This document shows, piece after piece, positions 2,937 through 25,307 of a stretch of DNA of 27,054 bases. The notes beneath the pieces were generated by a model. It did no database searches. It was not told the origin of the DNA and saw only the letters and a program-made list of their open reading frames with translations. Position numbers and translations under genes: made by a program. Each line of letters starts with the position of its first letter. Positions within the stretch are counted from its first letter, which is position 1. The DNA is from a virus: positions 1-27,054 of IMG/VR virus record IMGVR_UViG_3300001419_000037, one strand, 5' to 3'.

Positions 2937-3412
2937 CCTGTCACCGAATCGAATTGGGTTTGCCAGACACTGCCATCCGGCTGGGTAATGTCAATCGAGC
3001 AACCCAGCATGGACGGCGCATGCCACCAGGCATCGACACCGATTTCAATAGCCCGGTCGGTATCGATCAGCCATTGCAGTGACTGCTCTATATAAATGAT
3101 AGCCAGCTGTCTTGTTTCTGCCGTTTCCTTTGCACGATGCAACACCCATAGCAAAGAGCCGTGTGGGCGAGCTTGCGCGCCTGGTTCACTACCGTCGGAC
3201 GGGTAATCGTCGCCCCAATAACCGCCTGCGTAGTTTTGAATATCATCTGCCAGGTGTTGCGGGCGTGGGTCATCCGCCGTCAGGCGGCGGTCGGTAAACA
3301 AGCTGGCGATGACGGCGGCTTGTAATGTGTTATCGATAGGCGGGTTGCCGGTCGATAGGTCCAGGTAAAAGCGGCCGGTGGCGTCTTGTGTTGAGAAAAA
3401 ATCCTGGTTCAT
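2933..3412 (-). CDS. Tail protein gp46 (Phage_GP46 family)
   Basis: 159 aa, equal to the family norm. The GP46 family is recognisable by DGRRL-like 'TDRRLTADDPRP', then a conserved YAGGYWGDDYPSDGSEPGA stretch near residues 60-80 and the LLWVLHRAKETAET helix. It corresponds to P2 gpW / T4 gp25-type baseplate components in location. It overlaps gp45 upstream and gp47 downstream by ATGA, so expression ratios are probably fixed by coupling. Confidence 0.88.
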   Translation of the reverse strand: MNQDFFSTQDATGRFYLDLSTGNPPIDNTLQAAVIASLFTDRRLTADDPRPQHLADDIQNYAGGYWGDDYPSDGSEPGAQARPHGSLLWVLHRAKETAETRQLAIIYIEQSLQWLIDTDRAIEIGVDAWWHAPSMLGCSIDITQPDGSVWQTQFDSVTG

Positions 3413-3900
3413 AACGACTTTACCTTGTCTGAACCCTCTTCAATCGGCCACAACCCCGCACTGGAACCGGAACCGACATTTACCCGATCGCCGATCCGCG
3501 CCACTTTTGCGCCACCCTCACCTCCCAGATTGATATCATCAGACTCAATCACCACCTTCGGCGCTTTAACATGGATATGGTCACGCTTAAGGGTAATGGT
3601 TTGGCCTAAATCGTCATAAATCGCCACTTCCCCAGCTTCCAGGTCTTTTAACCGATATTGCCGATCGGCCACGCAAATCGCTATTTCGTGTCCACTACGG
3701 CCGCCGGCGCTGAGGGTAATTGCTTCCGAACCTGGGTGGGCGTGGGCGGTAAATCCATAGGGTTCAAAATGCTCGACGCTATCCAGCGCCAATGCGCCAA
3801 TGGTTTTCACTTGCAGCATTTGCAATGCCGTTGCGCTATCCACCAGCGAGACAATGCCCCGAGTAACCAACAACTGTAGGCGGCGTTTTAGACTCTCCAT
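3409..3900 (-). CDS. Baseplate assembly / central spike protein gp45 (gpV-like)
   Basis: 163 aa from the ATG at 3900, which overlaps the stop of the hub gene as TGATG. A longer frame upstream exists, but it only shadows the hub gene, so I chose MESLKRRLQ. The middle (residues 55-125) carries an OB-fold-like beta segment with AHPGSEAITLSAGGRSGHE, followed by repeated beta strands (HIHVKAPKVVIESDDINLGG) typical of a spike stem. In Mu, gp45 is the membrane-piercing spike below the hub. The C-terminus is short, so a metal-binding tip like that of longer gpV proteins is not evident. Confidence 0.85.
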   Translation of the reverse strand: MESLKRRLQLLVTRGIVSLVDSATALQMLQVKTIGALALDSVEHFEPYGFTAHAHPGSEAITLSAGGRSGHEIAICVADRQYRLKDLEAGEVAIYDDLGQTITLKRDHIHVKAPKVVIESDDINLGGEGGAKVARIGDRVNVGSGSSAGLWPIEEGSDKVKSL

Positions 3901-4943
3901 CACCACCCTCCATTGCCGCTGTTCGGCTCGGGTTCCGGCTGCGGCTCCAGGTCGAATGCCTGTTTCGGGGTCACTTCCAGAACGGTAATGCTGCCGCCGT
4001 TGTCGTCTATGCTGTAGGTGACCTGGCTGATCAGCAACCGGGCCATAACGTTTAGCAATGGGTCTTCCACGTCCACCAGTACATTCGGCTCCCACAGCCC
4101 TTGAGCATGATGCCATCCGCGCACCGTGTAGCTAATGCTTTGGCCTTCGCCGGCGCGGCGGTTCATTTCGGCGGCGCTGCGGGTTTTGCAGTCGGCGGCA
4201 TGGGCCGGGCCGTCGGCAATGATACAGGTGGGGCGATATCGCAGGTTAAGGTCTTTTACCAACGCCTCGGCATGCGCGGCTTGGTCGCCGTGGAATAGAT
4301 CAGTGCCGCTAGTTTGGCCCAATACCCGGTATTCGCTGAATCGCTCGGAACTGCTGAAACGGCCGGAGGCGGACTTGATGTTTTGGCCGTAGACCAATTT
4401 AGTCGGCGCCACGGCGGTACCGGTGCGGATAAACGCCAACGAACCGTCGGACTTGCTGACGATGCGCACGCCGCGAATCCGCGATAATTCGTTCAAAAAG
4501 TCGAAAATACTTTGCCCGGCTTCCAGCGCCACCTTGGCAAACGGCCCGCCGATATCGGTTTCCGCAGCTACGGCAATACCGAACGGCGCGGCCAGATCGG
4601 CGGCGATTTGTAATAAGGTGCGCCCGGAAAACTGTCGGCCCTTGGTGCTGCTATCCACCAGATCGGCGGCGGCGCTGAGCCCGGATACCGCAATCGAATG
4701 GCTTAGCTCGTCATAGCTGGGCATCACCTCAAACACGTAACCGCTAATGATGATATCGCCATCGATCCACACCTGGCATTTTGAATCGTCTCGGATCGGC
4801 CGCAGATTAGGTTGGCCGGCCCAACGGTCGGTCAACTCCAAATCGAAGGTATTGGCCGCCTGCTTAATGCTGCGCACCACCCGAATCGAGGTCCATCCAT
4901 CCCAGGCTTTGTCGTCTATTTTTAGAGCAAGTTGATTAGTCAT
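3900..4943 (-). CDS. P: Baseplate hub protein P (Mu gp44)
   Basis: 347 aa, close to Mu gpP (about 380). The opening LALKIDDKAWDGWTSIRVVRSIKQAANTF.LELTDRW is the standard gp44/gpD-type hub N-terminus. The mid part has ISGYVFEVMPSYDE and the TKGRQFSGRTLLQIAADLAAPFGI element, typical of tail-hub proteins that link tube and spike. The last 20 residues are Pro/Glu-rich and probably flexible. Its ATG overlaps the stop of the 59-aa gene upstream by 8 bases. Confidence 0.9.
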   Translation of the reverse strand: MTNQLALKIDDKAWDGWTSIRVVRSIKQAANTFDLELTDRWAGQPNLRPIRDDSKCQVWIDGDIIISGYVFEVMPSYDELSHSIAVSGLSAAADLVDSSTKGRQFSGRTLLQIAADLAAPFGIAVAAETDIGGPFAKVALEAGQSIFDFLNELSRIRGVRIVSKSDGSLAFIRTGTAVAPTKLVYGQNIKSASGRFSSSERFSEYRVLGQTSGTDLFHGDQAAHAEALVKDLNLRYRPTCIIADGPAHAADCKTRSAAEMNRRAGEGQSISYTVRGWHHAQGLWEPNVLVDVEDPLLNVMARLLISQVTYSIDDNGGSITVLEVTPKQAFDLEPQPEPEPNSGNGGW

Positions 4944-10374: not shown

Positions 10375-10923
10375 CTAGGGCAGGTCGAATTCGTTAATAA
10401 AATCGGTGACAGCATCGGCGTTGATATCCGATTCCGCATGAAACGTAATAAAGTCGCCCAGCGTCGCGTCATTAAAGGCGTCTTTTAGCGATAGTGACAG
10501 GGTAAATGTCATGGCATACACCGTGCCGCCCAGCTGGGTCAGCACGTTCGCAAACAGGTTGGCTAGGTTAGCGCCCTGCAGCGTGCCGACGCCGGCTATG
10601 GTGTGGTTGTGCAGTTTTTCCGCGCAGGCGGCGATAATGTCGTACGCGCCGATTGCAGTAAGCGAACCGCGGCGGCGGTTGATCTCTTGCGGTTCTTTAG
10701 TTACGGCATACACATCGAAACGGGCATCGATCATGCACATGTTGTTTGCGCGAAACGGGCCACCGTTGAATGCGACATAGACCGCCGGCGCGCGCTGTAG
10801 CAACTGCCGCAACAAATCCGGCGACCAGGCGCCGGGCAGCGAGCCGCTGTCGCGCAGCTTGCCGGGTAGCGCTGTATTGATTACGGAGAGAATGTCGTCT
10901 TCGACGTCGGAAATAATGCTCAT
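10375..10923 (-). CDS. Tail completion-type protein gp37 (DUF1834)
   Basis: 182 aa from ATG 10923 (MSIISDVEDDILSVIN). An ATG at 10932 would add three residues, but alignment of the upstream region with that of the protease gene at 16277 places the shared start at 10923. DUF1834 features are the N-terminal VEDDILSVINTALPG, the central AVYVAFNGGPFRANN and RFDVYAVTKEPQEINRRRG, and the FHAESDINADAV end. In Mu it is a neck/tail-terminator protein that joins tail and head. No Shine-Dalgarno sequence precedes the start; a conserved promoter-like leader does. Confidence 0.87.
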   Translation of the reverse strand: MSIISDVEDDILSVINTALPGKLRDSGSLPGAWSPDLLRQLLQRAPAVYVAFNGGPFRANNMCMIDARFDVYAVTKEPQEINRRRGSLTAIGAYDIIAACAEKLHNHTIAGVGTLQGANLANLFANVLTQLGGTVYAMTFTLSLSLKDAFNDATLGDFITFHAESDINADAVTDFINEFDLP

Positions 10924-10999
10924 GGACCGCATGCTACGCGGCCATGCCTAAACGGGGAATCTGAAGGGCTTCAGTGGTGCGGGATTATTTTGAATGGGG
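10924..10999 (-). promoter_or_regulatory. Predicted late promoter copy 2, upstream of gp37
   Basis: This leader matches the one ahead of the protease gene (16278-16347) from the start codon outwards. It holds CTGAAGGGCTTCAG (10961-10974), with a GCGGCCA element and CGGGG between it and the gene. The best -10 is TAGCAT (10936-10931), which would put the start of transcription at about 10924 and centre the dyad at -43.5. No -35 consensus is seen, as expected of a Mor/C-activated promoter. It is placed in a 166-bp gap after gp36, so gp37 onward is likely its own late unit. Confidence 0.5.
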
Positions 11000-11014
11000 G
11001 TGCCAATCCGTGGC

Positions 11015-11071
11015 AGAGGCCTTTCAACTGCGGCCTCTAATTAGTCCTCTCTCTCATGGGGGGTTGAAAGG
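11015..11071. repeat. Inverted repeats in the gap between gp36 and gp37
   Basis: Two overlapping stem-loops are possible. AGAGGC (11015-11020) pairs with GCCTCT (11033-11038) across a 12-base loop. CCTTTCAAC (11020-11028) pairs perfectly with GTTGAAAGG (11063-11071) across 34 bases. Neither is followed by a T-run on the minus strand, so a simple intrinsic terminator is not shown. They may end or process the protease-to-gp36 transcript before the next promoter. Confidence 0.4.
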
Positions 11072-11089
11072 TTCATAAAAAGGCCAGGC

Positions 11090-11503
11090 TCAATACGCAT
11101 CCCGGCTAAATACCGATTCTGCAGACTGCATCGACACCGTTTCGCTCGGGCGTTGGTCGATATCGCCATTACTATCCGGGCCTAAACCGAGATCGCCTTT
11201 GCCAACTTTTTCCAGATAGCGCAACGCGCGATCGTAGGCTTTTTGCACCGCATCGGTCGGGCTGTCTTTATACAGATAAAACCGCACGATATCGCACGCC
11301 ATACGCACGAAATTAGCGGGCACCGGCGACAGCGGCAACCAGGCGGCAATATAGGCGTCAATTTCCGCGCCCGCATCGGCAATGGCCTGGTCCAGCACGG
11401 CATCATCAACCACCACAGCGGACACGTCGTCCGGGTTGGTGAGGCGGATGAGCTCTTCGGCGCCGAAGCGGGCGGTCAGGTGGGTTTGTGTGCAGTAGGG
11501 CAT
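11090..11503 (-). CDS. Head-tail connector-type protein gp36 (DUF1320)
   Basis: 137 aa, the typical size of Mu gp36. DUF1320 features are the opening MPYCTQTHLTARFGAEELIRLTN, the DAGAEIDAYIAAWLPLSPVP segment, and the RMACDIVRFYLY helix; the C-terminal part ends with VSMQSAESVFSRD. In Mu it acts at the neck. It starts four bases after the stop of the SGNH hydrolase gene, so the two are co-transcribed. Confidence 0.88.
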   Translation of the reverse strand: MPYCTQTHLTARFGAEELIRLTNPDDVSAVVVDDAVLDQAIADAGAEIDAYIAAWLPLSPVPANFVRMACDIVRFYLYKDSPTDAVQKAYDRALRYLEKVGKGDLGLGPDSNGDIDQRPSETVSMQSAESVFSRDAY

Positions 11504-11507
11504 TAGG

Positions 11508-13181
11508 CTAACCGACTGAATTAGCTATCAGGTTTTGCAGATCGATTGCAATAACATCCGCGCCGGCCTGATTCGGATGTAGACCATCACCGCTGTCATA
11601 CGTTGCTGACAGCGAATATCGGTCAGCCGAATCGCCGACAGATCGTTTAAAATCGAACACTATGCATCCTATTCGCGCCGCTATATTTTGAATAATTTGA
11701 TCGTGTTTTTGCGCGGAAAAATATTTGTTATCGGATATCCAGGTCGCAATCCCTAATTTACATGGTTGAATTAACGTCAATATCGGAATAATCCCGTTCG
11801 ATATAGCGAACATTGCGGCCGCCTCTATCTCCGCTGTATCAGCAGCTATTGCCGCATACTGAGCCGACAATCCTGTCTGATTGATCGTATTCAGCGATGA
11901 CTGAATAATGACGAATGCCGTGAGGTGATTTTTGTCGATGAGTCGTTGAATTCTTGCGTTAAATGTCGATAAATAGGACGACGGCCGTGTGCCTGCCACA
12001 GTCGATCCGGCGACTGTTTCCCGTTGGACCCAAACCGCCACACGCGGATTGCTTAATAATCGCAACCGATCGGGATAGTCAATCGTATCGTTTACCCAGC
12101 TATCACCAAATACTGCTAATGAGAATCTATCGCGCGGCAGGCTTTGAACATTTGTTGTTAATGTTAGCAGCCCGTGAGTTTGACTAGTGAGTGACCCGGA
12201 ATAGTCTGCACTAATTGAAATCGCTTGTTTCGGGTCCGGAGCCGGCGGCGGGATCGCAATTGACGATTCAGTTAGATCAACAACGGAAATTTCATCAATG
12301 ACGCAACTAGAATCGCCAGTTGTCACATCATTTGTTCCCATGCCAATCCGCCAACTGATTGCTTGTGACGTTGTCGGCTGAAAAATAATCGCATACGTAC
12401 CGTCCACCGACAGCTCAGTCATCGCTAACGATTCGACGCCTAGATCAAGGGCCGGCGCTACGCCGGTACGCGCTATAAACGGAGAATTGGTGCTGGTTGG
12501 TTTTACTAAATTAGAAATTCGAACGGATAAACAATAAATGTGACCAGCAACAAATGTCTTTGCCGTTGAAAATATTGTAATAAACCCACGGCCGCCAGAC
12601 TGACAAACGATCGCTATCGATTGATTGTCGTCATCCGCTGTAACGGTCGCGCCTGTTTGAGTTTTCGATATCTGCGATACGAATTCCTTATCTAATAAAT
12701 TCTCTACGACCAGCCCGTTATTCAGATTGTGCCGCAAAAAATTAACGCAACCTTGTATTGTTTGCGGGCCAGCCCGAGCCGATCTAAAACCTAAATCCGC
12801 CGGGGCAGGAAGGTTGGCAATAGAACTCGCAACAGTAACCGCTGTTTCATTTGAGCGAGGCAGGTCAGGCATATCAAACACCGCCTCAGCCGACGGGTCC
12901 GAGTAGTTTCCGGCGGCATCGAAGGCCCGCACAACCACGCTATGCGCCCCCGCTGGCACGCCGGACAGTTGAATAGCAGTGGTCGCGCTGCGCGCCGCCT
13001 CGGCCGGGCTGCCGTCTAAAAAGGCGGCATAACCCGCTACGGCAACGTTATCCGTGCTGGCTGTGACAGTGACCGTGGCGGTTTGATTGGCATTAGCATT
13101 CGTCACCACTGGCGTGCCGGGGGCGGTCGGTTTGGTGTGGTCTACCGTGGGTGGCGTGCCGGCGTAGGGGGCTGGGGACAT
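11508..13181 (-). CDS. FN3-domain SGNH/GDSL hydrolase, probable virion cargo enzyme
   Basis: 557 aa. Residues 17-105 read as a fibronectin type III/Ig-like domain (TKPTAPGTPVVT...NVAVAGYAAFLDGSP...DAAGNYSDPS). Residues 120-330 look like a beta-sandwich of the carbohydrate-binding type (NLLDKEFVSQ...SWRIGMGTND...CVIDEISVVDL). Residues 350-557 are an SGNH hydrolase: FGDSW with Ser361 (block I), a candidate block III Asn in SSLNTIN near 431, and DGLHPN giving Asp532 and His535 (block V). The catalytic set is complete. It lies between the head gene for the FluMu-type protein and gp36, where Mu has no enzyme. No signal peptide is present, so it probably rides on the particle and removes acyl groups from surface polysaccharide; substrate is inferred. 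Confidence 0.82.
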   Translation of the reverse strand: MSPAPYAGTPPTVDHTKPTAPGTPVVTNANANQTATVTVTASTDNVAVAGYAAFLDGSPAEAARSATTAIQLSGVPAGAHSVVVRAFDAAGNYSDPSAEAVFDMPDLPRSNETAVTVASSIANLPAPADLGFRSARAGPQTIQGCVNFLRHNLNNGLVVENLLDKEFVSQISKTQTGATVTADDDNQSIAIVCQSGGRGFITIFSTAKTFVAGHIYCLSVRISNLVKPTSTNSPFIARTGVAPALDLGVESLAMTELSVDGTYAIIFQPTTSQAISWRIGMGTNDVTTGDSSCVIDEISVVDLTESSIAIPPPAPDPKQAISISADYSGSLTSQTHGLLTLTTNVQSLPRDRFSLAVFGDSWVNDTIDYPDRLRLLSNPRVAVWVQRETVAGSTVAGTRPSSYLSTFNARIQRLIDKNHLTAFVIIQSSLNTINQTGLSAQYAAIAADTAEIEAAAMFAISNGIIPILTLIQPCKLGIATWISDNKYFSAQKHDQIIQNIAARIGCIVFDFKRSVGDSADRYSLSATYDSGDGLHPNQAGADVIAIDLQNLIANSVG

Positions 13182-13189
13182 GGTTTATC

Positions 13190-13879
13190 CTATTTTTTTT
13201 TGCGTGATGCCCTGGCGGGTTTGTCCACCTGGGCCGGTTCGGGTTTTGCGGCGGCGGTTTCAGCCGCGTCCGTGCCCGCGTCCGCAGGGTCCGTGTTTAC
13301 GCTGGCTGCGTTAGGTTCGCCATCCGTGACGGGCGTTTGGGTTGGTCCTTTATCCTCCGCCTGATTTTCGGTGTTTTTCTTGTTTTTCAGCGATTCGCCC
13401 TCAGTCTCCCAGGCGGTGTCACTCACTTCCGTGTCCGCCTGGGCTTGGTCCTTCTGCCTGTCGCTCTCTTGGTGGGTATTGGGTTCTGCCAGATTAGCGT
13501 CTGATTTATACAGATCGGTTTCCGGCATGTCGTCTGTAAAAGGACCGTGCAAGTTTCCTTTCGTATCGACACCGAAAAATTGGTCGTCGATACGTTGTCC
13601 TTCCGGTATCTGCAATTCAATGCCTTTTTTAATAACTTTTATACGTGTAAATGGCCCAAACCAGCCGCCAACGTCACTGTACGCATAAATGCCGTCCGGC
13701 AGATTTTCGCTTTTGACGATATCGGCATCGACAACCTTTACATCCAGTAACGGCTCGTCAAACAACGTCTGCAACTGCTCGTCTGTAAACTGATCGTCCG
13801 GATAGACTTTAGGCTCCGTGGTATGCGCGATGCCGCAACGGCGGAAGCCGTCGCGTTTTGCGCTAATTTCTAAAGGCAT
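13190..13879 (-). CDS. FluMu-type head-region protein with long acidic/charged tail
   Basis: 229 aa. Residues 1-60 resemble the FluMu N-terminal domain found in Mu gp35-like proteins (EISAKRDGFRRCGIAHT...PDDQFTDEQLQTLFDEPLL). Residues 60-120 contain a compact GWFGPFTRIKVI / DTKGNLHGPFTDD duplication of a short beta motif. From 125 on the chain is low-complexity, rich in Asp, Glu, Thr, Gln and Ala, and ends with a basic ARASRKKK. The gene follows the major capsid, as in Mu-like prophages. Function is unknown; the acidic linker and Lys tail suggest a surface or scaffold-like tether. A run of nine A before the stop was checked and does not fuse it to the next gene. Confidence 0.75.
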   Translation of the reverse strand: MPLEISAKRDGFRRCGIAHTTEPKVYPDDQFTDEQLQTLFDEPLLDVKVVDADIVKSENLPDGIYAYSDVGGWFGPFTRIKVIKKGIELQIPEGQRIDDQFFGVDTKGNLHGPFTDDMPETDLYKSDANLAEPNTHQESDRQKDQAQADTEVSDTAWETEGESLKNKKNTENQAEDKGPTQTPVTDGEPNAASVNTDPADAGTDAAETAAAKPEPAQVDKPARASRKKK

Positions 13880-13889
13880 GGCTTACCCC

Positions 13890-14783
13890 TTAACCCAGCC
13901 AGGGACTTTCGATCAGATCCACCGCTTTGTACAGCGGGTTTTTGGTGCCGGCTACGTACTCGGTCAGAATTAAATCCTCTACCGCGTCGCGGCTGGATGG
14001 GCCGAAGATCAGGTGGGTAGCGCGCACCGGCAGCGGGCGGCCGCCGGGGCGGCGTTGGGTGCCGAGCGCCAGGCGGGCGGCCTTGAAATTGGTCGCATCC
14101 AGAGTGGCTTTGGAGCCGAACGCCAGCTGGTGAAAACCGAACCCAGCCACGTAACGGGCATCCGCGCCGAACACGAATTCTTTGTTCATAAACACGTTGT
14201 CATCGTCGACACGCGTCATCGACACGAACTGCGGCGCTTTGCGGTTTTGGAATATCAACGGCTTCATAAAGTTTTTGGACAGGTCGGCCAAAAACCAAGG
14301 CTGGCCGGCACCGCCGCCGGTATTGCTCCACGATACCTCCGCGCCGGCAGCATTGTAGCCGACGTGATCGGTGTCGAAAAAATACTGACCGTCGAAACCG
14401 GTGGTGCTAAAGCCGTTCGGCAGCAAGCCCCAAACCAGTTCGTCCGGATGGCTGGCGACTACTTCGCCTTGCATACTGAATATGTTGTTGAATATGCCGA
14501 GTTCGTCGTCTTCGATGGCAGTACGGGACACCGATATGGTGTGCTCCCAATCCTTGTTTTCCAACAGGGCGCTGGTGGCTTCCAGGTTATGGATAACCCG
14601 CGCGCCGATCCATTCGCGCATACCGGGCAGCTCTTTCAGCCAGCCGTAATTCTCGATTTTGGTCTTCGACTGAATCACCATAGCGATTTGTGTGTATGTC
14701 GGCGTTACAGAGCCGAACCCCGACATGAAAACTTGTTGAAAGCCTTGGTTCAGGGCTTTAAGCGTTGCGTTACTGATGTTCAT
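13890..14783 (-). CDS. T: Major capsid protein T (Mu gp34)
   Basis: 297 aa, near the Mu gpT length (305). The opening NISNATLKALNQGFQQVFMSGF and the following YTQIAMVIQSKTKIENYGWLKELPGMREWIG are the strongest family signatures; the rest matches the HK97-like fold pattern, including HPDELVWGLLPNGF and FFDTDHVGYN. It is intact with no interruptions. Upstream are the decoration protein and protease/scaffold, so capsid shell assembly could proceed, though no portal gene is present in the window. Confidence 0.93.
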   Translation of the reverse strand: MNISNATLKALNQGFQQVFMSGFGSVTPTYTQIAMVIQSKTKIENYGWLKELPGMREWIGARVIHNLEATSALLENKDWEHTISVSRTAIEDDELGIFNNIFSMQGEVVASHPDELVWGLLPNGFSTTGFDGQYFFDTDHVGYNAAGAEVSWSNTGGGAGQPWFLADLSKNFMKPLIFQNRKAPQFVSMTRVDDDNVFMNKEFVFGADARYVAGFGFHQLAFGSKATLDATNFKAARLALGTQRRPGGRPLPVRATHLIFGPSSRDAVEDLILTEYVAGTKNPLYKAVDLIESPWLG

Positions 14784-14796
14784 AAATTCTCCGAAA

Positions 14797-15225
14797 TTAC
14801 AGGCCTAACGCCATTTGCACCCAAACGCCGTCGGAATCGACAGCGACGATTTTGCCGGCCCGGCTGCGGGTAGAACCGCCGTTGGTTTTAGCCACGGTTT
14901 GGTCGTCCACGATGTAGCAGTCCGCGCCGACGTCGGCTTGGGCAATTAAATCGCCGGCGGATGAATTAGCGAATTTGAAGCGGCCGCCTTTAACCACCGC
15001 CTTCTTGGCGCCGGCCGCGCCGGAGGTGTTGTCCACCTCATCCTCGAAGCGGCCCACGGCGATTAAACCGGTGGCAGTCACGCCGGGCTTGACGTAGCCG
15101 GCCGCCAAAACGGCAATGCCCCCCTGTTGGCATTTAACGGATGCAGCAACGGGGTAATCTTCGTTGTTAAATTCCAGCCCGCCGGAGCGTTTCTGGGTAT
15201 TGCGTGGTGCGGATAATGCGGCCAT
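14797..15225 (-). CDS. Head decoration-like protein
   Basis: 142 aa between protease and major capsid. The first 30 residues are flexible (SAPRNTQKRSGGLEFNNEDYPVAAS), then a beta-rich fold with repeated Gly/Val/Ala strands (GGIAVLAAGYVKPG, GGRFKFANSSAGD, ADCYIVDDQTVAKTNG, AGKIVAVDSDGVWVQMAL). This resembles DUF2190/gpD-like capsid-stabilising proteins found at this position in several Mu-like phages. It overlaps the protease stop by one base. Confidence 0.72.
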   Translation of the reverse strand: MAALSAPRNTQKRSGGLEFNNEDYPVAASVKCQQGGIAVLAAGYVKPGVTATGLIAVGRFEDEVDNTSGAAGAKKAVVKGGRFKFANSSAGDLIAQADVGADCYIVDDQTVAKTNGGSTRSRAGKIVAVDSDGVWVQMALGL

Positions 15226-15725
15226 TACTTGCCTCCGATCATGGTTTTAACGTCGATGCCCAATTGCGCGGCAACGGCTTCTTGTTCCGGAGTGGCGAAC
15301 AGCGCCGCGGTTTCTGGCACGGTTTTACCAGCGGTTTGCATGCCGGATAGTGCGGCAATGCCCGGCATGGCATCCAGATACGCGGACAGCGCAGCCAGGT
15401 CTTTTTTGCCGAAATCGGTAGCCCATTGCTTGGCCTCTTCGCCAATCAATTTTCCGGTTTTAACGCCGTCGTCGACCAGTTTGGCAACCTTGCTTTCCAG
15501 GCTGTCGCCGGACAGCGCGGCCAGTTTTTGCACCGCCTCGGTATACATGCCGATCGGCACAAATTTGCTCATGTCCGGCGCGGCCGTTTGTTGTGCCTTA
15601 GCCGATAGTGCGGCGACTTGGGTTTGATGTTCTGTGGCTTGGGCTTGTAATGCTTCCACGGCAGCGCACGCGGCGGCCATGTCGGCATCGGCGGCCAGGC
15701 CGAGCAGTTGTAGCAGTTTTTCCAT
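15225..15725 (-). CDS. Z: Nested scaffold protein (Mu Z-like), in-frame within protease gene
   Basis: An internal start at ATG 15725 (residue 185 of the protease) has GGAG six bases ahead (15735-15732), a better ribosome site than the one for the full-length protein. The product would be 166 aa (MEKLLQLLGLAADADMAAA...), mostly helical with coiled-coil-like Ala/Gln/Glu stretches. In Mu, gene Z is nested in-frame in the protease gene I in exactly this manner and supplies the scaffold for the procapsid. The internal ATG follows a Glu/Thr/Pro linker, where the protease part ends. Confidence 0.7.
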   Translation of the reverse strand: MEKLLQLLGLAADADMAAACAAVEALQAQATEHQTQVAALSAKAQQTAAPDMSKFVPIGMYTEAVQKLAALSGDSLESKVAKLVDDGVKTGKLIGEEAKQWATDFGKKDLAALSAYLDAMPGIAALSGMQTAGKTVPETAALFATPEQEAVAAQLGIDVKTMIGGK

Positions 15726-16277
15726 CGGTGGCTCCGTGGTGGTTTCGGGTGAGTGTTCCGTGTTTAGCAGCGCGGATGCAGCGGCCAGGGTGACGGGTTT
15801 CATGTCGTCGATGGCAGCGTTGTTGGTCAGCGACACGTTAATAATGTCTAGCACCTCGCCGGTTTCGGCGTCGTAGGTGAATAGCGGCGATTGGTAGCGG
15901 TATTCGTCGGCGGCAATGTGCGCCGAGGCGGCGGCCGTCCATCGCGGGCTTTTTGCGTAGAGGCCGGGTTTGTCGTGGGGGGCGTCGCGCCATTCCAGGG
16001 CATCGGTGCCGATCCAGCCGGCGGCGACCACGGGTTTACCATTGGCCGCGGCATGCAGCAGTTGATGTTCGTAGTCGATTAAAATATCGTTTTTACGCTG
16101 CGATACGGCGGCGATTAAGCGAGCGGCCGAGTCGGCCGTCATACGCCACGGGCCTTTGCCGCGCAACGAGCCGCGCTTGGCGTCGAATTCGCCGGCCGGA
16201 AAAATCTGCAGCGCGCCATCCTGCGAGGGTTGCAGCATAAAGGCCAGGGCAGCGATGTGAGTGTGTTTTTTTGCCAT
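15225..16277 (-). CDS. I: Prohead protease with C-terminal scaffold (Mu gpI)
   Basis: 350 aa. The protease domain (residues 1-170) shows LQIFPAGEFDAKRG, then ILIDYEHQLL with a likely catalytic His, and LDIINVSLTNNAAI with a likely nucleophile Ser, the expected pattern for the Mu I protease. The C-terminal half is the scaffold (see the nested entry). It cuts the scaffold and its own chain during head maturation. No Shine-Dalgarno is seen before ATG 16277; instead the conserved leader with the CTGAAGCGCTTCAG dyad runs up to the start codon. In Mu this is the site of late promoter PI. Confidence 0.9.
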   Translation of the reverse strand: MAKKHTHIAALAFMLQPSQDGALQIFPAGEFDAKRGSLRGKGPWRMTADSAARLIAAVSQRKNDILIDYEHQLLHAAANGKPVVAAGWIGTDALEWRDAPHDKPGLYAKSPRWTAAASAHIAADEYRYQSPLFTYDAETGEVLDIINVSLTNNAAIDDMKPVTLAAASALLNTEHSPETTTEPPMEKLLQLLGLAADADMAAACAAVEALQAQATEHQTQVAALSAKAQQTAAPDMSKFVPIGMYTEAVQKLAALSGDSLESKVAKLVDDGVKTGKLIGEEAKQWATDFGKKDLAALSAYLDAMPGIAALSGMQTAGKTVPETAALFATPEQEAVAAQLGIDVKTMIGGK

Positions 16278-16347
16278 GGGCCGCAGTGTAGGCGGCCACG
16301 GTTAGCGGGGTAATCTGAAGCGCTTCAGTGGAGCGGGTTTGATGGGG
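16278..16347 (-). promoter_or_regulatory. Predicted late promoter copy 1 (PI-like), upstream of protease gene
   Basis: Reading towards the gene, there is CTGAAGCGCTTCAG (16315-16328, a perfect 14-bp palindrome), then the shared leader, TACACT (16290-16285) as a -10, and the ATG at 16277. With that -10 the predicted start of transcription is about 16278 and the palindrome is centred at -43.5. The same arrangement occurs before gp37. Mu has a late promoter at the same gene, activated by C. The activator here would be the Mor/C-family protein at 17236. Confidence 0.55.
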
Positions 16348-16357
16348 CCCCGGTAGC

Positions 16358-16384
16358 GGGTGACTACGAACAGCGTAGCCACCC
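16358..16384. repeat. Stem-loop at the head of the truncated late region
   Basis: GGGTGACTACG (16358-16368) pairs with CGTAGCCACCC (16374-16384) over a five-base loop, 10 of 11 positions. No T-run follows on the minus strand. It lies between the lone membrane-protein gene and promoter copy 1, near where the packaging genes are missing. It may be a transcript end or a dispersed repeat left at the junction. Confidence 0.5.
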
Positions 16385-16503
16385 ATCGGGTTTAAATTAC
16401 TCTACCACAAACGTCAATGCGCTTTCGTCCGGCAAGCGAGCCGAGAGCACCGTTAGCAAGCAGGAGACTTCTTCGGTGCTGGCTTTTGAATTGTCAACGT
16501 GAC
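16385..16503. other. Non-coding stretch, possible gene remnant
   Basis: On the minus strand a frame without a start codon reads SHVDNSKASTEEVSCLLTVL and onwards to a stop near 16397. It has a protein-like composition but no start or ribosome site. It might be the tail of a gene lost in the deletion. I see nothing else in this stretch. Confidence 0.25.
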
Positions 16504-17109
16504 TTATTTCGACGACTCAATCGTAATGTTCAAGATCGACAGCTCTTTATAAAAAACCACTCGAATTATTTTTCCGTCTACCGTTTTCTCTTTTTTAGCT
16601 TGACTGGATTTTTTAGACTCAAGGACGTCGGCTATCGAATCACTCACCCATTGATTTGATTCTGGCCAGTCGGTAAAAACCTGGTTTACAAACATAAATA
16701 CCAACACAGTATTTCCGAAATTATGCTGACCGTCGGATGAAATGCCCAACATCAATGTGGCGTGGGTAATATCGGATGGATCTCCGATCAATTCCATGCT
16801 GGCTATTGATTGTGAGTCGTCGCCTTTGGCTATTACTCTCGGCTCGCCATCGACCGGCTGGGCATAATCAAAATAAAATCCCTTTCCGCGAAAAGTTTTT
16901 GAAAACGCGTCGAGAGTGACACCCAAACCCATCTTGGGTGGCATTTGCACGTCTTTGGTTTCTAAAGCCGGCGCAGCAACTTGCTGCTCAGGTTGTTTAA
17001 CAGCCTGAGCAGAGCTAAAAAAATCATAAATCCAAAATCCGGCGGCAATTAAGACAATTGCCGTCAGCATGCTTGCTGTTTCCTGTTGTGTATTTTTTGC
17101 TTTTTTCAT
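16504..17109 (-). CDS. Membrane-anchored protein of unknown function in the packaging-gene gap
   Basis: 201 aa. The N-terminus is Lys/Gln-rich and cytoplasmic, followed by one hydrophobic helix (about residues 14-31, MLTAIVLIAAGFWIYDFF), a Pro/Gln/Ala linker, and a periplasmic-like domain of about 150 residues with many hydrophobic strands. AGGAGG lies six bases before the ATG. It is more AT-rich than the neighbours. I do not recognise a family. It sits alone between the Mor/C gene and the protease, exactly where Mu has lysis, terminase and portal genes, and so may be a cargo (lysogenic-conversion or superinfection-type) gene inserted there. Confidence 0.75.
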   Translation of the reverse strand: MKKAKNTQQETASMLTAIVLIAAGFWIYDFFSSAQAVKQPEQQVAAPALETKDVQMPPKMGLGVTLDAFSKTFRGKGFYFDYAQPVDGEPRVIAKGDDSQSIASMELIGDPSDITHATLMLGISSDGQHNFGNTVLVFMFVNQVFTDWPESNQWVSDSIADVLESKKSSQAKKEKTVDGKIIRVVFYKELSILNITIESSK

Positions 17110-17235
17110 ACTGCCTCCTAATCAAAAAACCGTTTATAAAGCATTTATGAGGCCCGCTGCCGGGTTTTTGTGCTGTGTTGCGGCGGGTTATAGCCACCAA
17201 CAGTGCGCACGGGCCTTAAATCGCCGCTGCTTCAC
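17110..17235 (-). promoter_or_regulatory. Intergenic region ahead of the lone membrane gene, possible promoter
   Basis: This 126-bp gap separates the early operon from the membrane-protein gene. A TTTATAAA at 17133-17140 could serve as a -10, with no -35 consensus, as in Mor-activated middle promoters. The CTGAAG dyad of the two late leaders is absent. A four-base GC stem (CCCG/CGGG near 17153-17164) is too short to call a terminator. Confidence 0.3.
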
Positions 17236-17634
17236 TTAAGCGAATAAATCGTAATTCGGATCGTCGTCGGCTTGTTCAGCGGCCAGTATGAGATATACGG
17301 CACGCTCGGTCAGGTGGTATTTGCGCCCCAGCGCCATGGGGCTCATATGAGCGCGGTCAGCAACGATGGCCAGATTGCGCAATTTGCGCTTAGCGGCGCT
17401 GGCCAGCGGGATATCTGTGAGCGTTTGTCCGCCGTAAATATCGCAAAATGTCAGCGCATCCTTTAGCCCTAGCGCATGCGCTAGGGGGTGGTCGCGATTG
17501 AGGGATGCCGCGCGCGGCACGTATAAATGGCCGCCACCATAGGCATCCCATAGCTTCCACATGATTTCCTCGCCACAATAGTCTGCGATTTCGCGCAGGC
17601 GCGGCGGCAGCAGGTGTTTAGGCAAGTTGGACAT
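17236..17634 (-). CDS. mor: Mor/C-family transcription activator
   Basis: 132 aa, the expected length (Mu Mor 129). The N-terminal half (PPRLREIADYCGEEIMWKLWDAYGGGHLYVPR) is the dimerisation part with the family YGG motif; the C-terminal half carries a helix-turn-helix (DRAHMSPMALGRKYHLTERAVYLILAA). Mor/C proteins bind dyads near -43 and recruit RNA polymerase. It is the only such gene in the window, so it probably controls the late promoters at 16278 and 10924 directly, with no separate C. It overlaps GemA by 17 bases. Confidence 0.88.
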   Translation of the reverse strand: MSNLPKHLLPPRLREIADYCGEEIMWKLWDAYGGGHLYVPRAASLNRDHPLAHALGLKDALTFCDIYGGQTLTDIPLASAAKRKLRNLAIVADRAHMSPMALGRKYHLTERAVYLILAAEQADDDPNYDLFA

Positions 17635-18082: not shown

Positions 18083-18660
18083 TTTCGCTCCTGATTGCGC
18101 AGTTGGTTGAGCTTGTCTTGCAACGTGTCCAGTTGCTGTTTAATTTTGGGGTCTTTGCCGGCTTGGTAGAGACTATTGAGCGCGGCGATTTCATTAACCA
18201 GCCGGTTGTGTTCCATGCGTTTGCGTTTGCTGTCGTCTACCGGGGCTTTGCTGTAATCCAGCCAACGCATTTCGTACAGCCAGCCCTGTGCCATTTTACG
18301 CACCTGGCCTTGCGTCAACGGGCGCTGGGCCTCTTGCGCGGCGGCGTCGGTAACGGCCTGGTACTGCTCCGGTGTGATGTAACCGCGCTGGCATAGCTGG
18401 GTCCAGCGCATGGCCGCGCCGTTGCGATCTTTTTTAAGATCAAACGCTTTCCAAAACGCATCGAACCCGGCTTTTTGCGCCGGCGCCAATTCCGCATACC
18501 AGTTGCGCATTTCGCGCGGCTGGCCGGGCTGATCCGCACCGTAGCCGCGCTGGCTCAACTCATCCCAAGCCTGCTCGGCGTAGCGGATGGTGTTTTGCAG
18601 CTCGGCCAGCGGCGGCAAACGCCGCACTACCACGGATTGAATAAAGCGCTTTTTGCTCAT
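18079..18660 (-). CDS. Early-region hypothetical protein
   Basis: 193 aa from ATG 18660 (MSKKRFIQSVVVRRLPPLAELQ), chosen because it overlaps the previous stop as ATGA; an earlier frame exists but would start inside that gene. The protein is helical with a Trp-rich middle (RNWYAELAPAQKAGFDAFWKAFD, WLYEMRWLDYSKAP) and a C-terminal coiled coil (residues about 150-193). Similar proteins precede gemA in several Mu-like phages; function unknown. Confidence 0.75.
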   Translation of the reverse strand: MSKKRFIQSVVVRRLPPLAELQNTIRYAEQAWDELSQRGYGADQPGQPREMRNWYAELAPAQKAGFDAFWKAFDLKKDRNGAAMRWTQLCQRGYITPEQYQAVTDAAAQEAQRPLTQGQVRKMAQGWLYEMRWLDYSKAPVDDSKRKRMEHNRLVNEIAALNSLYQAGKDPKIKQQLDTLQDKLNQLRNQERK

Positions 18661-22578: not shown

Positions 22579-24345
22579 TCATACCGCCTGCAACCGGGCT
22601 TTGCCGCCCGCCGTGCGCCCGGCTTGCAGGTCTGTCAGCACCTGTTCCAGCTCCGGCTCGGTAGCGCCATTTGGAAAGCGCTGCTCCAGCTCGGCGCGGA
22701 TGTCCGGGTTGAATGCGTCGCCCAGGCGGGTGCGCAGCCAATTGAGCTGCTTGACGATGTTCAGGCGTTCCAATTCGACGGTTGGGGTTGCCACGTCCAG
22801 CGGCGTGCCGCGTTTTTTCATAAAGTCCGGCAGCGGCTGTCTGGAGGGCAGCAGCGGGTCTATGCGGCCGTCGAACGGCGTGTAATCTTTTCTCGACTGT
22901 TTTTTCTCGGTTTCGTCCAGGGTGTTTGTGCCGGCGGCGATTTGCGCGATGCGCTTGCGGTTGGTATCGGCGACCGTGTCCGGCTTGGCCTTGTGCCCTT
23001 GGCCGATGACGGCGGCGTCCTCGAAAAACCCCAAGGCGTTTTGTTTTTTTTCCGGTAAGGCGATATGGGTTTCGTGGCCGTCTTCGCCCCAAATTACCGC
23101 CATGGCGGTATCCGCCATAAACGGGTGCCAATGCACGTACAAATCATCTTTCACCATCACGCCCGGTACGTCTTTGACGTCCCAAAACCGGGATTTGAAT
23201 TCGACGACCAGATTGCCTTTCACCTGGCGCTTAACCGGTTCTTCCGTCGCCAATTGCAGCAATACGTTGGCGGGCGGCGTGGTGCGCAGTTGTTCGGCGG
23301 TGATGGTCAGCCACACGTCAAAGCGGGTGCGTTTTGTGCGGCTGTGTATCTTGGTGGCGTTCCACCACAGCTGATAGGTTTCCGCCAAGGCGTTAAGCTG
23401 GTCGAAGCTGGCCGGGCGGGGCTTTAAGTAACGCAGGGTTTGCTCAAAGCTGGTTTCGACCAAATGGTTGCCCTTTTCCACGCTGCCCTTGGCACGGGCA
23501 TTCTTGCGTTTGTTAACGATCAGCTCGATCCCCATGCGGTGGCAAAAGCGCTTCACTAAACCGCCGGCGGTGGCGCCGGGGTCTACCATGACGATAAACG
23601 GCGCACCGTTAAACGGATCGTTGCCGTCCTTGGGCGCCATGGCCCAGGCCAAAAAGCGTACGCTGTGCTGGCCGCTTTCCGCATGCGGGTAGTAACGGTA
23701 ACGCACGGTGCCGCTGGCGTGGTCTGTGACGACGTAGCGAATCACCCGGAATTGTTCGATGGCTTTGAGGTTTTGCGGTTTGTTTTTGTAATGCACCGCA
23801 TCGTCCAGTTCCACCAGTTCGGTGCCGCCGTCCGGCAGGTAATAAATCACGCACACCGAGGCATCCACTTGCCATACGTGATTAGGGTGCAGCGATTGTA
23901 AATCGGTATGCGGCGTGGGCCGGCGCAGTTGCTCCGGGTGTAATGCGTAGGTGCTTAAAGCCCTGGCCACGGCGGAATCCGACAAAGGCAGGATTGCGCC
24001 GGTTTCGGTATCCAGCGTGCCGGCCACGACTTCGCCGTTATCGCGCAAGACCCGCAGCGCTTCTTTAAGCGAGGTGATTTTGCGGTTGTTCTTGCGATAG
24101 CCCGCCATCATGTACGCTGAAATGATTTCCGCTTCCGCCAACGGCAATACCACGTTGCCGGCATCGCTGCGGCGTTTGCGCGGTTTGGCGACCGCCACGG
24201 CTTTTAAATGCTTCAGCAGCGTGGCGCGGCTTTTGCCGAGTTGCTCGCAGGCGCGCTGGTAAATCGACTCTTTTTTGCCGTGGCCGGCCGCCGCCGCTGC
24301 ATCGGCAATGCTGACCAGCTGCTGAATGTAAGCCGGGTCAAACAC
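22579..24345 (-). CDS. A: Mu-type DDE transposase A
   Basis: 588 aa from GTG 24345, which has CGGAG at eight bases; an ATG at 24378 lies inside the previous gene and has no better ribosome site. The N-terminal 90 residues are helical DNA-binding (RATLLKHLKAVAVAKPRKRR, then EAEIISAYMMAGYRKNNRKITSLKEALRVLR). The catalytic rve domain gives D161 (WQVDASV), D255 (VMVDPG) and E290 (KGSVEKGN) with a 35-residue D-E spacing. A Mu-type beta barrel follows (KGNLVVEFKSRFWDVKDVPG). All catalytic residues are present, so it is presumably active on the ends at base 5 and the unseen other end. Confidence 0.93.
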   Translation of the reverse strand: MFDPAYIQQLVSIADAAAAAGHGKKESIYQRACEQLGKSRATLLKHLKAVAVAKPRKRRSDAGNVVLPLAEAEIISAYMMAGYRKNNRKITSLKEALRVLRDNGEVVAGTLDTETGAILPLSDSAVARALSTYALHPEQLRRPTPHTDLQSLHPNHVWQVDASVCVIYYLPDGGTELVELDDAVHYKNKPQNLKAIEQFRVIRYVVTDHASGTVRYRYYPHAESGQHSVRFLAWAMAPKDGNDPFNGAPFIVMVDPGATAGGLVKRFCHRMGIELIVNKRKNARAKGSVEKGNHLVETSFEQTLRYLKPRPASFDQLNALAETYQLWWNATKIHSRTKRTRFDVWLTITAEQLRTTPPANVLLQLATEEPVKRQVKGNLVVEFKSRFWDVKDVPGVMVKDDLYVHWHPFMADTAMAVIWGEDGHETHIALPEKKQNALGFFEDAAVIGQGHKAKPDTVADTNRKRIAQIAAGTNTLDETEKKQSRKDYTPFDGRIDPLLPSRQPLPDFMKKRGTPLDVATPTVELERLNIVKQLNWLRTRLGDAFNPDIRAELEQRFPNGATEPELEQVLTDLQAGRTAGGKARLQAV

Positions 24346-24350
24346 GATGA

Positions 24351-25307
24351 TTACTCCGCTGATTGCGCTTGCTGCCATGCCATAAACTCCTCTGCGTCGC
24401 GTTTGGCCGGGTTATCGGTCGCGGCTTCCGGATTGGTGTCGATCGTGAGAAAAAGGTCTTCGGCCACGCCGTAAGCGGCGGTGACGATTAACCCCAAGGC
24501 TTGGGCGGCGGCTAGGCGGATGTGGGCCGGCGGCTCGTTGCCGTAGATGTCGAATAGTTTGACGATCTCGCTGCGCACGGTGGCGGACACGCGGGACGCG
24601 ACCGAATTGGCGTACCCTTGCAGCGCTTCCAGTTCGACGTGGCCGGGCATGTAGTGCTCTTCTACGTCGCCGGCAACCGGTTTTTTCTGCTCCAGCAGCG
24701 CCAGTTTTTCGGCTTGGTCGTCAATGGACGCGTTCTTACTGGCAATGACGGCGTCCTTGGCAGTCAGCATGCCGTTGGCTTCGCGCAGGGCTTTTTTTAG
24801 CTCGCTTACAGATAGGGTTTCGATTTTGTCCAGGGTTAAGCCACGTACCGAGTCGCCGGATTCAAGGGCTTCGATTTCGCCGTCGTCCAGCACTAAAAGC
24901 TCTAACATTTTGGTTTGATTTCCTGCCGCGTTCAAAAGCGAATTCGAATTCGCATTTGAAAACTTCAATACTGACGACATAAATTTTTGAGCCATGCGGG
25001 GCTGAATGCCTAACAACTCAGCACGTTTAGCAAACTCGCCGTGCGGCGACAGCTCTTTCATAATCAAGAGAGATTTGCCAATTTCGAAAACCTCCTCGAT
25101 AGTGCGCCGCATGGATTGGCGGATGCGATCTTCAATAGCCCCCAATGTTAACGGGCCGTCGTAACCGATTTGGCGCGCCACGGCTACGGCATTCTCATTC
25201 TCGGTTTGGCTGATGGCACTCAAATAATCCACCGCTTGCGCCATGGTAGTGACATCGGTTTCATCGTCGTATCGATCGACTTCGGTAATTGCTGGCGTTC
25301 TACTCAT
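24351..25307 (-). CDS. DUF3102-like early protein
   Basis: 318 aa. The N-terminal 120 residues match DUF3102-type proteins (MRRTIEEVFEIGKSLLIMKELSPHGEFAKRAELLGIQPRMAQKFM), an all-helical module common in plasmids and Mu-like phages ahead of the transposase. A coiled coil (residues 170-215) and a C-terminal domain follow. A 30-bp near-perfect palindrome lies within the gene (24931-24960). It overlaps the HTH gene by eight bases and ends six bases before the transposase GTG. Role unknown. Confidence 0.8.
   Translation of the reverse strand: MSRTPAITEVDRYDDETDVTTMAQAVDYLSAISQTENENAVAVARQIGYDGPLTLGAIEDRIRQSMRRTIEEVFEIGKSLLIMKELSPHGEFAKRAELLGIQPRMAQKFMSSVLKFSNANSNSLLNAAGNQTKMLELLVLDDGEIEALESGDSVRGLTLDKIETLSVSELKKALREANGMLTAKDAVIASKNASIDDQAEKLALLEQKKPVAGDVEEHYMPGHVELEALQGYANSVASRVSATVRSEIVKLFDIYGNEPPAHIRLAAAQALGLIVTAAYGVAEDLFLTIDTNPEAATDNPAKRDAEEFMAWQQAQSAE
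24931..24960. repeat. 30-bp near-perfect palindrome within the DUF3102 gene
   Basis: The arms TTCAAA-A-GCGAATTC and GAATTCGC-A-TTTGAA make a palindrome with only one mismatched pair; the inner 16 bases GCGAATTCGAATTCGC are perfect. It encodes SNANSNSLLN in the host gene, outside the recognised DUF3102 motif. It could be an operator or partition-like site for a dimeric protein. No other copy was noticed. Confidence 0.7.

Follow-up and report, generated by a model that had tools for sequence, protein, structure and literature searches.

The virus record IMGVR_UViG_3300001419_000037, analysed here over its full 27,054 bases (hereafter the window), is a Mu-like transposable prophage with its genes on the minus strand, and it carries two closely matching leader sequences, one before the gene for the head maturation protease and one before the gene for a Mu gp37-like protein. 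Taken as a whole, these leaders are best explained, and with some confidence, as late promoters that depend on an activator of the Mor/C family and that give rise to near-leaderless mRNAs. From their sequence they very probably form a real pair of promoters; their assignment to Mor/C is well supported by comparison with related phages. The protease I gene (15225..16277, minus strand; Pfam Mu-like_Pro, E 2e-79), the first of the head unit, starts at an ATG whose A lies at 16277. The gp37-like gene (10375..10923, minus strand; Pfam Phage_Mu_Gp37, E 7e-15), the first of the tail unit and devoid of a Shine-Dalgarno (SD) sequence, has two in-frame ATGs, with their A at 10923 and 10932, of which the downstream one is used here, as it was in a preliminary description of this DNA.

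That description held that the two leaders align outward from their start codons, and this is borne out: the protease leader (16275..16340, minus strand) and the gp37 leader (10921..10986, minus strand) agree at 51 of 66 ungapped positions (77% identity), and across all pairs of the 453 minus-strand ATGs in the window no other pair reaches even 42 of 66. Each leader contains a perfect dyad, CTGAAGCGCTTCAG (16315..16328, minus strand) before the protease gene and CTGAAGGGCTTCAG (CTGAAGCCCTTCAG on the coding strand; 10961..10974, minus strand) before gp37, which we propose as the Mor/C operators of the respective promoters. As had been described, both begin 38 bp upstream of their ATG, and their centres lie 44 nt before it. 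The arms are CTGAA/TTCAG around a 4-bp spacer or, if extended, 6-bp arms around a 2-bp spacer. CTGAAGNNCTTCAG, with up to two mismatches allowed, is matched by these two dyads and nowhere else in the window; as this count of two compares with a shuffle mean of 0.46 and is reached in 8 of 100 shuffles, the motif alone is not decisive. Furthermore, perfect 5-bp arms are found 42-46 nt before an ATG in eight further cases in the window. Since such a dyad near a start codon is thus not rare, the evidence lies in the leader pair and in the relatives rather than in any single palindrome. Exact scans of viral contigs with the leaders gave no match, and a DNA search of phage records with the leaders gave just two weak partial matches (E 7). 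A shorter leader pattern matched once, in a tail gene of an unrelated contig, which we judge to be chance.

Relatives were collected by means of the capsid protein, which recovered 80 viral and 58 prokaryotic-genome loci, the best being 67% identical; close-relative searches with the protease and the Mor/C protein returned nothing, and those with gp37 two 19-residue fragments only. In an alignment of 92 of their protease leaders (distinct at 85%), anchored at the start codon, dyads with 5-bp arms and a 4-bp spacer were centred 42, 43, 44 and 45 nt before the ATG in 5, 2, 13 and 6 leaders, respectively. These 26 of 92 thus peak at 44 nt, the same distance as both window dyads, while dinucleotide-shuffled leaders yield 0.1-0.3 dyads per position and never more than two. 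The sequence of the arms varies: CTGAA is shared by the window with the relatives L030 and L026, and CGGAA, CCGAA, GTGAA, GTGCA, CTAAC, CTAAA, GTAAA and CCGAC occur elsewhere. When the dyad is sought in relatives, as the preliminary description had suggested, its position and layout recur, often with a GAA-N4-TTC core, but the exact CTGAAG-N2-CTTCAG of the window is absent from the relatives' protease leaders, so that a search framed in terms of the exact motif at first looked negative. A conserved position with a changing sequence is as would be expected of an operator evolving with its protein. The cultured phage JBD30 (L197, ~574) has GAA-N4-TTC centred 44 nt before its protease ATG, no SD sequence and a GCCA-N-TGGC repeat against the ATG, which is the same layout as in the window. 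Dyads of the CCCGC and CCCCC type in L062 and L128, in which no Mor gene was found, were set aside as probable effects of base composition.

The relatives also carry further copies of their own dyads. Among the 22 loci of at least 12 kb, we found 12 extra exact copies of the phage's own arms, against 0.9 expected when the arms of other lineages are used. They lie 7-8 kb before the protease gene (L017, L043, L076, L085 and L115), at the head-tail junction (L029 and L030) and 8-12 kb after the protease gene (L017, L029, L030 and L043). The junction copy of L030 precedes gp38 and a sheath gene and is a near counterpart of the window's copy before gp37. In L017, L029, L030 and L043 the arrangement resembles that of the Mu promoters Plys, PI and PP (PMC4461284); the window keeps only the protease and gp37 copies, because its lysis-packaging block is missing.

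The proposed reader of the dyad is encoded at 17236-17634 on the minus strand. The preliminary identification of a Mor/C protein at this locus is confirmed by matches to Pfam Mor (PF08765; E 6.6e-10, 39.4 bits against a curated cut-off of 24.9) and to PHROG 836, late transcriptional activator (E 1e-24). It is the one Mor-family gene recognised in the window, its recognition helix reads LTERAVY, and no solved structure is close to it by sequence. PF08765 was detected in 26 of 43 and in 18 of 28 of the records examined; of those in which it was missed, many are short fragments. In the 31 phages that have a Mor/C protein as well as a readable dyad (some arms being assigned by eye, and host-genome Mor genes on contigs other than the prophage's being excluded from the pairing), the distance between arms is correlated with that between Mor/C proteins (r 0.48, p 0.0002); it remains so when capsid distance is taken into account (r 0.49, p 0.0002), and it is not correlated with capsid distance itself (r 0.08, p 0.17). 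With automatic arm calling (n = 26), the correlation with Mor/C is r 0.54, and 0.50 given capsid distance (p 0.0003), while the raw correlation with the capsid (r 0.23, p 0.005) falls to -0.03 given Mor/C. On this comparative evidence, the sequence of the dyad appears to follow the Mor/C protein and not the capsid.

The co-variation is also seen at individual residues of the helix. Among arms with at least 4 of 5 pairs, those with G at arm position 3 are all paired with arginine as the third helix residue, and those with A there with isoleucine, methionine or valine (17/0 versus 0/9). The A-type arms belong to a single clade beside Mor and C of Mu. GTGCA arms arose twice, each time with a helix beginning S-R-R. 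The window Mor/C protein is sister to that of L030 (98/83); both phages have CTGAA/TTCAG arms, and their capsids are 54% identical. The proposal in the preliminary description that the dyad is a candidate activator operator read by this protein thus draws comparative support from the conserved position, the recurring copies and the co-variation of arms with Mor/C.

A consensus scan detected no sigma-70 site in either leader; there are -10-like hexamers without a -35 hexamer. We propose as -10 elements TACACT in the protease leader (16285..16290, minus strand), a hexamer that recurs at the same offset from the dyad in two L030 promoters with longer leaders (12576 and 20700), and, from its sequence, TAGCAT in the gp37 leader (10931..10936, minus strand). 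If position +1 is placed seven bases past the last T of the hexamer, both dyads centre at -43.5, as the preliminary description had calculated, and its comparison with Mor activation in Mu agrees with the 16-bp dyad centred at -43.5 from which Mu Mor acts (PMC4390567). This geometry predicts mRNA starts at 16278 for the protease and at 10924 for gp37 (both minus strand), each one base before the ATG. An SD sequence, defined as AGGA, GGAG or GAGG at the usual place, is found in 0 of 29 dyad leaders, as against 80 of 86 leaders of the next gene, 96 of 112 of the capsid gene and 35 of 36 of the sheath gene. Given the predicted start and this absence, the late mRNAs from the dyad promoters should be leaderless. 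All three copies of L030 have 24 nt between the dyad and a hexamer (TATGAT, TACACT and TACACT), even though two of the three have longer, SD-bearing leaders; as the spacing is the same despite the long leaders, the conserved quantity is the distance from dyad to -10, a property of the promoter. Gene I of Mu has a short leader with a ribosome-binding site (RBS), and leaderlessness would therefore belong to the branch of the window phage.

The -10 elements are themselves enclosed by GC-rich inverted repeats that end one base before the ATG. These are GGCCGC-CTACACT-GCGGCC before the protease gene (16279..16297, minus strand; 30-nt RNA fold -11.6 kcal/mol, z -2.5) and GGCCGC-GTAGCAT-GCGGTC, with one G-U pair, before gp37 (10925..10943, minus strand; 30-nt RNA fold -11.9 kcal/mol, z -1.6). 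Among the 92 leaders of relatives, 44 have a stem of at least 5 bp beside the protease ATG (shuffles: mean 12.6, maximum 22), and here again the sequences vary, as in CCGGCA/TGCCGG, TCCGCCAC/GTGGCGGA and GCCTGCACA/TGTGCAGGC. An inverted repeat with a new sequence also accompanies the second dyad copy of L008 and the third of L017; in the latter, at 18578, the dyad is followed by a perfect 9-bp stem, GCCTTGAGA/TCTCAAGGC, immediately before the ATG of another late gene.

We accordingly envisage a mechanism in which a dimer of the Mor/C protein would stand in for a -35 element by binding CTGAA-N4-TTCAG at -43.5 and would recruit the host RNA polymerase to the weak -10 element (TACACT or TAGCAT), with the protease promoter driving the head genes and the gp37 promoter the tail genes. 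With transcription beginning roughly one base ahead of the ATG, each unit would have its first gene translated from an essentially leaderless mRNA without an SD sequence. The GC-rich repeat would be absent from the late mRNA and could form only in read-through RNA from upstream, where it might mask the start codon, which lacks an SD sequence, and so hold the gene silent as long as the late promoter is inactive. This gating of the start codon, a hypothesis, is the least certain step of the scheme. The preliminary reading of operator and regulator stands within it, but it had missed the leaderless implication, the position of the -10 inside a repeat abutting the ATG and the departure from the geometry of the Mu middle promoter Pm. 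More tentatively, and with rather more reserve than conviction, we extend the scheme to a broad Mu-like family, with leaderless late mRNAs for the head protease (in some phages also for the first genes of other late units), a -10 inside a repeat that shuts off the start codon, a single activator controlling both transcription and the translatable message, and an operator code readable from helix residues 2 and 3.

Several points weigh against this interpretation. The promoter pair is known here from sequence alone, its start sites are predictions and both -10 hexamers are weak. The rule for choosing the ATG was fixed after some leaders had been seen; a strict dyad 38-55 nt before the ATG is present in only ~30 of the 92 leaders, many relatives lacking one there; and some arms were assigned by eye in the 31-phage comparison, which was repeated with automatic calls for n = 26. 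The association of helix residues with bases reflects one main split of the Mor/C tree and two small independent changes, and its Fisher value overstates independence. The portal and F genes are gone from the record, so that this copy may be free of selection. The excess of stem folding over the long-leader promoters is not significant after composition control (p 0.065), for which reason a hairpin contrast between leaderless and long-leader promoters is not claimed.

Some of these points would equally suit Mor/C promoters of the same kind whose transcripts start further up- or downstream, in which case the mRNAs would not be leaderless and the repeat would be an ordinary hairpin of the 5' untranslated region. 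The predicted nature of the start sites, the weak hexamers and the short leader of Mu gene I with its annotated RBS all speak for such a displaced start. Nevertheless, we consider it unlikely, if by some way the alternative to be taken most seriously, because the dyad leaders are uniformly without an SD sequence, the dyad-to-(-10) spacing is equal in the L030 promoters with SD leaders and Mu Mor acts at the very distance that the predicted starts imply (PMC4390567). A perfect palindrome over the -35 region would also suit a phage repressor or some other regulator that silences the late genes in the lysogen; this we regard as improbable, as the dyad tracks the Mor/C protein in sequence and its copies stand at the starts of late units, with none near the early genes in the window.

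It is more improbable still that the dyad acts not as a DNA site but as a hairpin in read-through mRNA, for processing or attenuation. It does fold into a small RNA stem-loop in both leaders, but it has no Rfam match, it co-varies with the recognition helix of a DNA-binding protein and its position is fixed relative to the -10. We likewise give very little weight to the notion that the two leaders arose by recent duplication, or as a mosaic patch, and have no regulatory function. Their 77% identity and their location at unit boundaries are what a duplication would produce; however, relatives of unrelated sequence keep the spacing and have matching copies of their own, and most differences between the window leaders fall outside the dyad and inverted repeat, as selection on those parts would leave them. 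Late promoters read by Mor/C, with transcripts beginning at the start codon, hence remain our preferred explanation.

The remainder of the window bears on the state of the prophage. Its minus-strand gene set comprises a MuB-like ATPase, GemA, Mor/C, protease I, capsid, gp36, gp37, sheath, tape measure and baseplate genes, and a transposase (22579-24378) is assigned from its resemblance to those of phages. All 10 relatives tested have the portal (PF06074) and F (PF04233) families, neither of which is present in the window, and no terminase was recognised among its genes. The interval from Mor/C to the protease gene (16340-17236) lacks the expected lysis, terminase, portal, F and G genes. In L017 portal and F are flanked by the Plys-like dyad on one side and by that of the protease on the other. 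The prophage copy seems defective, and the lysis-packaging block was possibly lost through a deletion between two copies of the promoter and leader. The sole open reading frame (ORF) between Mor/C and the protease leader (16504-17109) encodes 201 residues, has a GC content of 43% (window 55%), its own SD sequence, a hydrophobic N-terminus and no family match, and is probably a cargo gene. Between the gp35-like gene and gp36, at a position where Mu has no such gene, lies one for a 557-residue protein (11508-13181; GC 50%) with an Fn3-like N-terminus and a weak match to GDSL/SGNH hydrolases under the Pfam curated cut-off. The longest gp45-like ORF (3409-4116) shares 217 bases, in a different frame, with the gp44-like gene (3900-4943); the gp45-like gene itself probably begins at an internal ATG, that of MESLKRRL.

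These observations extend the Mor/C late control of Mu to a broad range of relatives, both cultured and uncultured, and they offer a testable base-residue code for a family of transcription factors for which Mu is the only source of DNA sites known here. Late promoters of Mu-like prophages can be annotated directly by means of the conserved spacing. If the proposed mechanism is true, a head assembly protease would be translated systematically from leaderless mRNA, and viral late control would act on transcription and on access to the start codon at one place; the novelty would rest on this predicted leaderless, start-codon-gated late mRNA.

Judged by sequence and layout, the window promoters appear to be a new variant of the Mor/C promoters of Mu. 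With Pm and Mor (PMC4390567, PMC4287176) they share 5-bp arms and a -10 without a -35 and, as predicted here, would share a centre at -43.5, a Mor-family dimer and the sigma-70 polymerase. Unlike them, Pm has a 6-bp, G/C-rich spacer rather than one of 4 bp, has different arm sequences and drives middle rather than late genes; the 4-bp spacer argues for a variant geometry, the 6-bp spacer being a feature of Pm and not of all Mor/C sites. In Mu the protease gene I, too, has a promoter that depends on C (PMC4461284, PMC4287176), in agreement with the preliminary description, and the late promoters of Mu resemble those of the window in preceding gene I, in having several copies at starts of late units and, as proposed here, in using a Mor-family activator. 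They differ in that the leader of gene I in Mu is short and carries an annotated RBS, in that Mu has separate Mor and C proteins against the one Mor-family gene recognised in the window and in that the second window promoter is at gp37, not at P. At Mu PI (L174, 8960-9060) there is an inverted repeat, TGCTCA...TGAGCA, near the start site and just before the RBS of gene I. The Pseudomonas aeruginosa phage Fc02, a B3-like relative, has one mor homologue in its early operon and, once induced, transcribes three late clusters (PMC9936078). An inverted repeat, but no clear dyad, is seen in the leader of its protease gene. A more distant comparison is with those T4 genes in which a late promoter lies inside a hairpin that silences earlier RNA (PMC2988022), including late genes and homing endonucleases such as I-TevI; in both cases the late RNA would escape a translation-blocking structure of the read-through RNA. 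T4, however, hides an SD sequence and uses its own late sigma factor, whereas the window leaders have no SD sequence and a start predicted at the ATG. The two would at most work alike, with no relation between them, and it is in the Mor/C promoters of Mu that the window promoters find their closest parallel.

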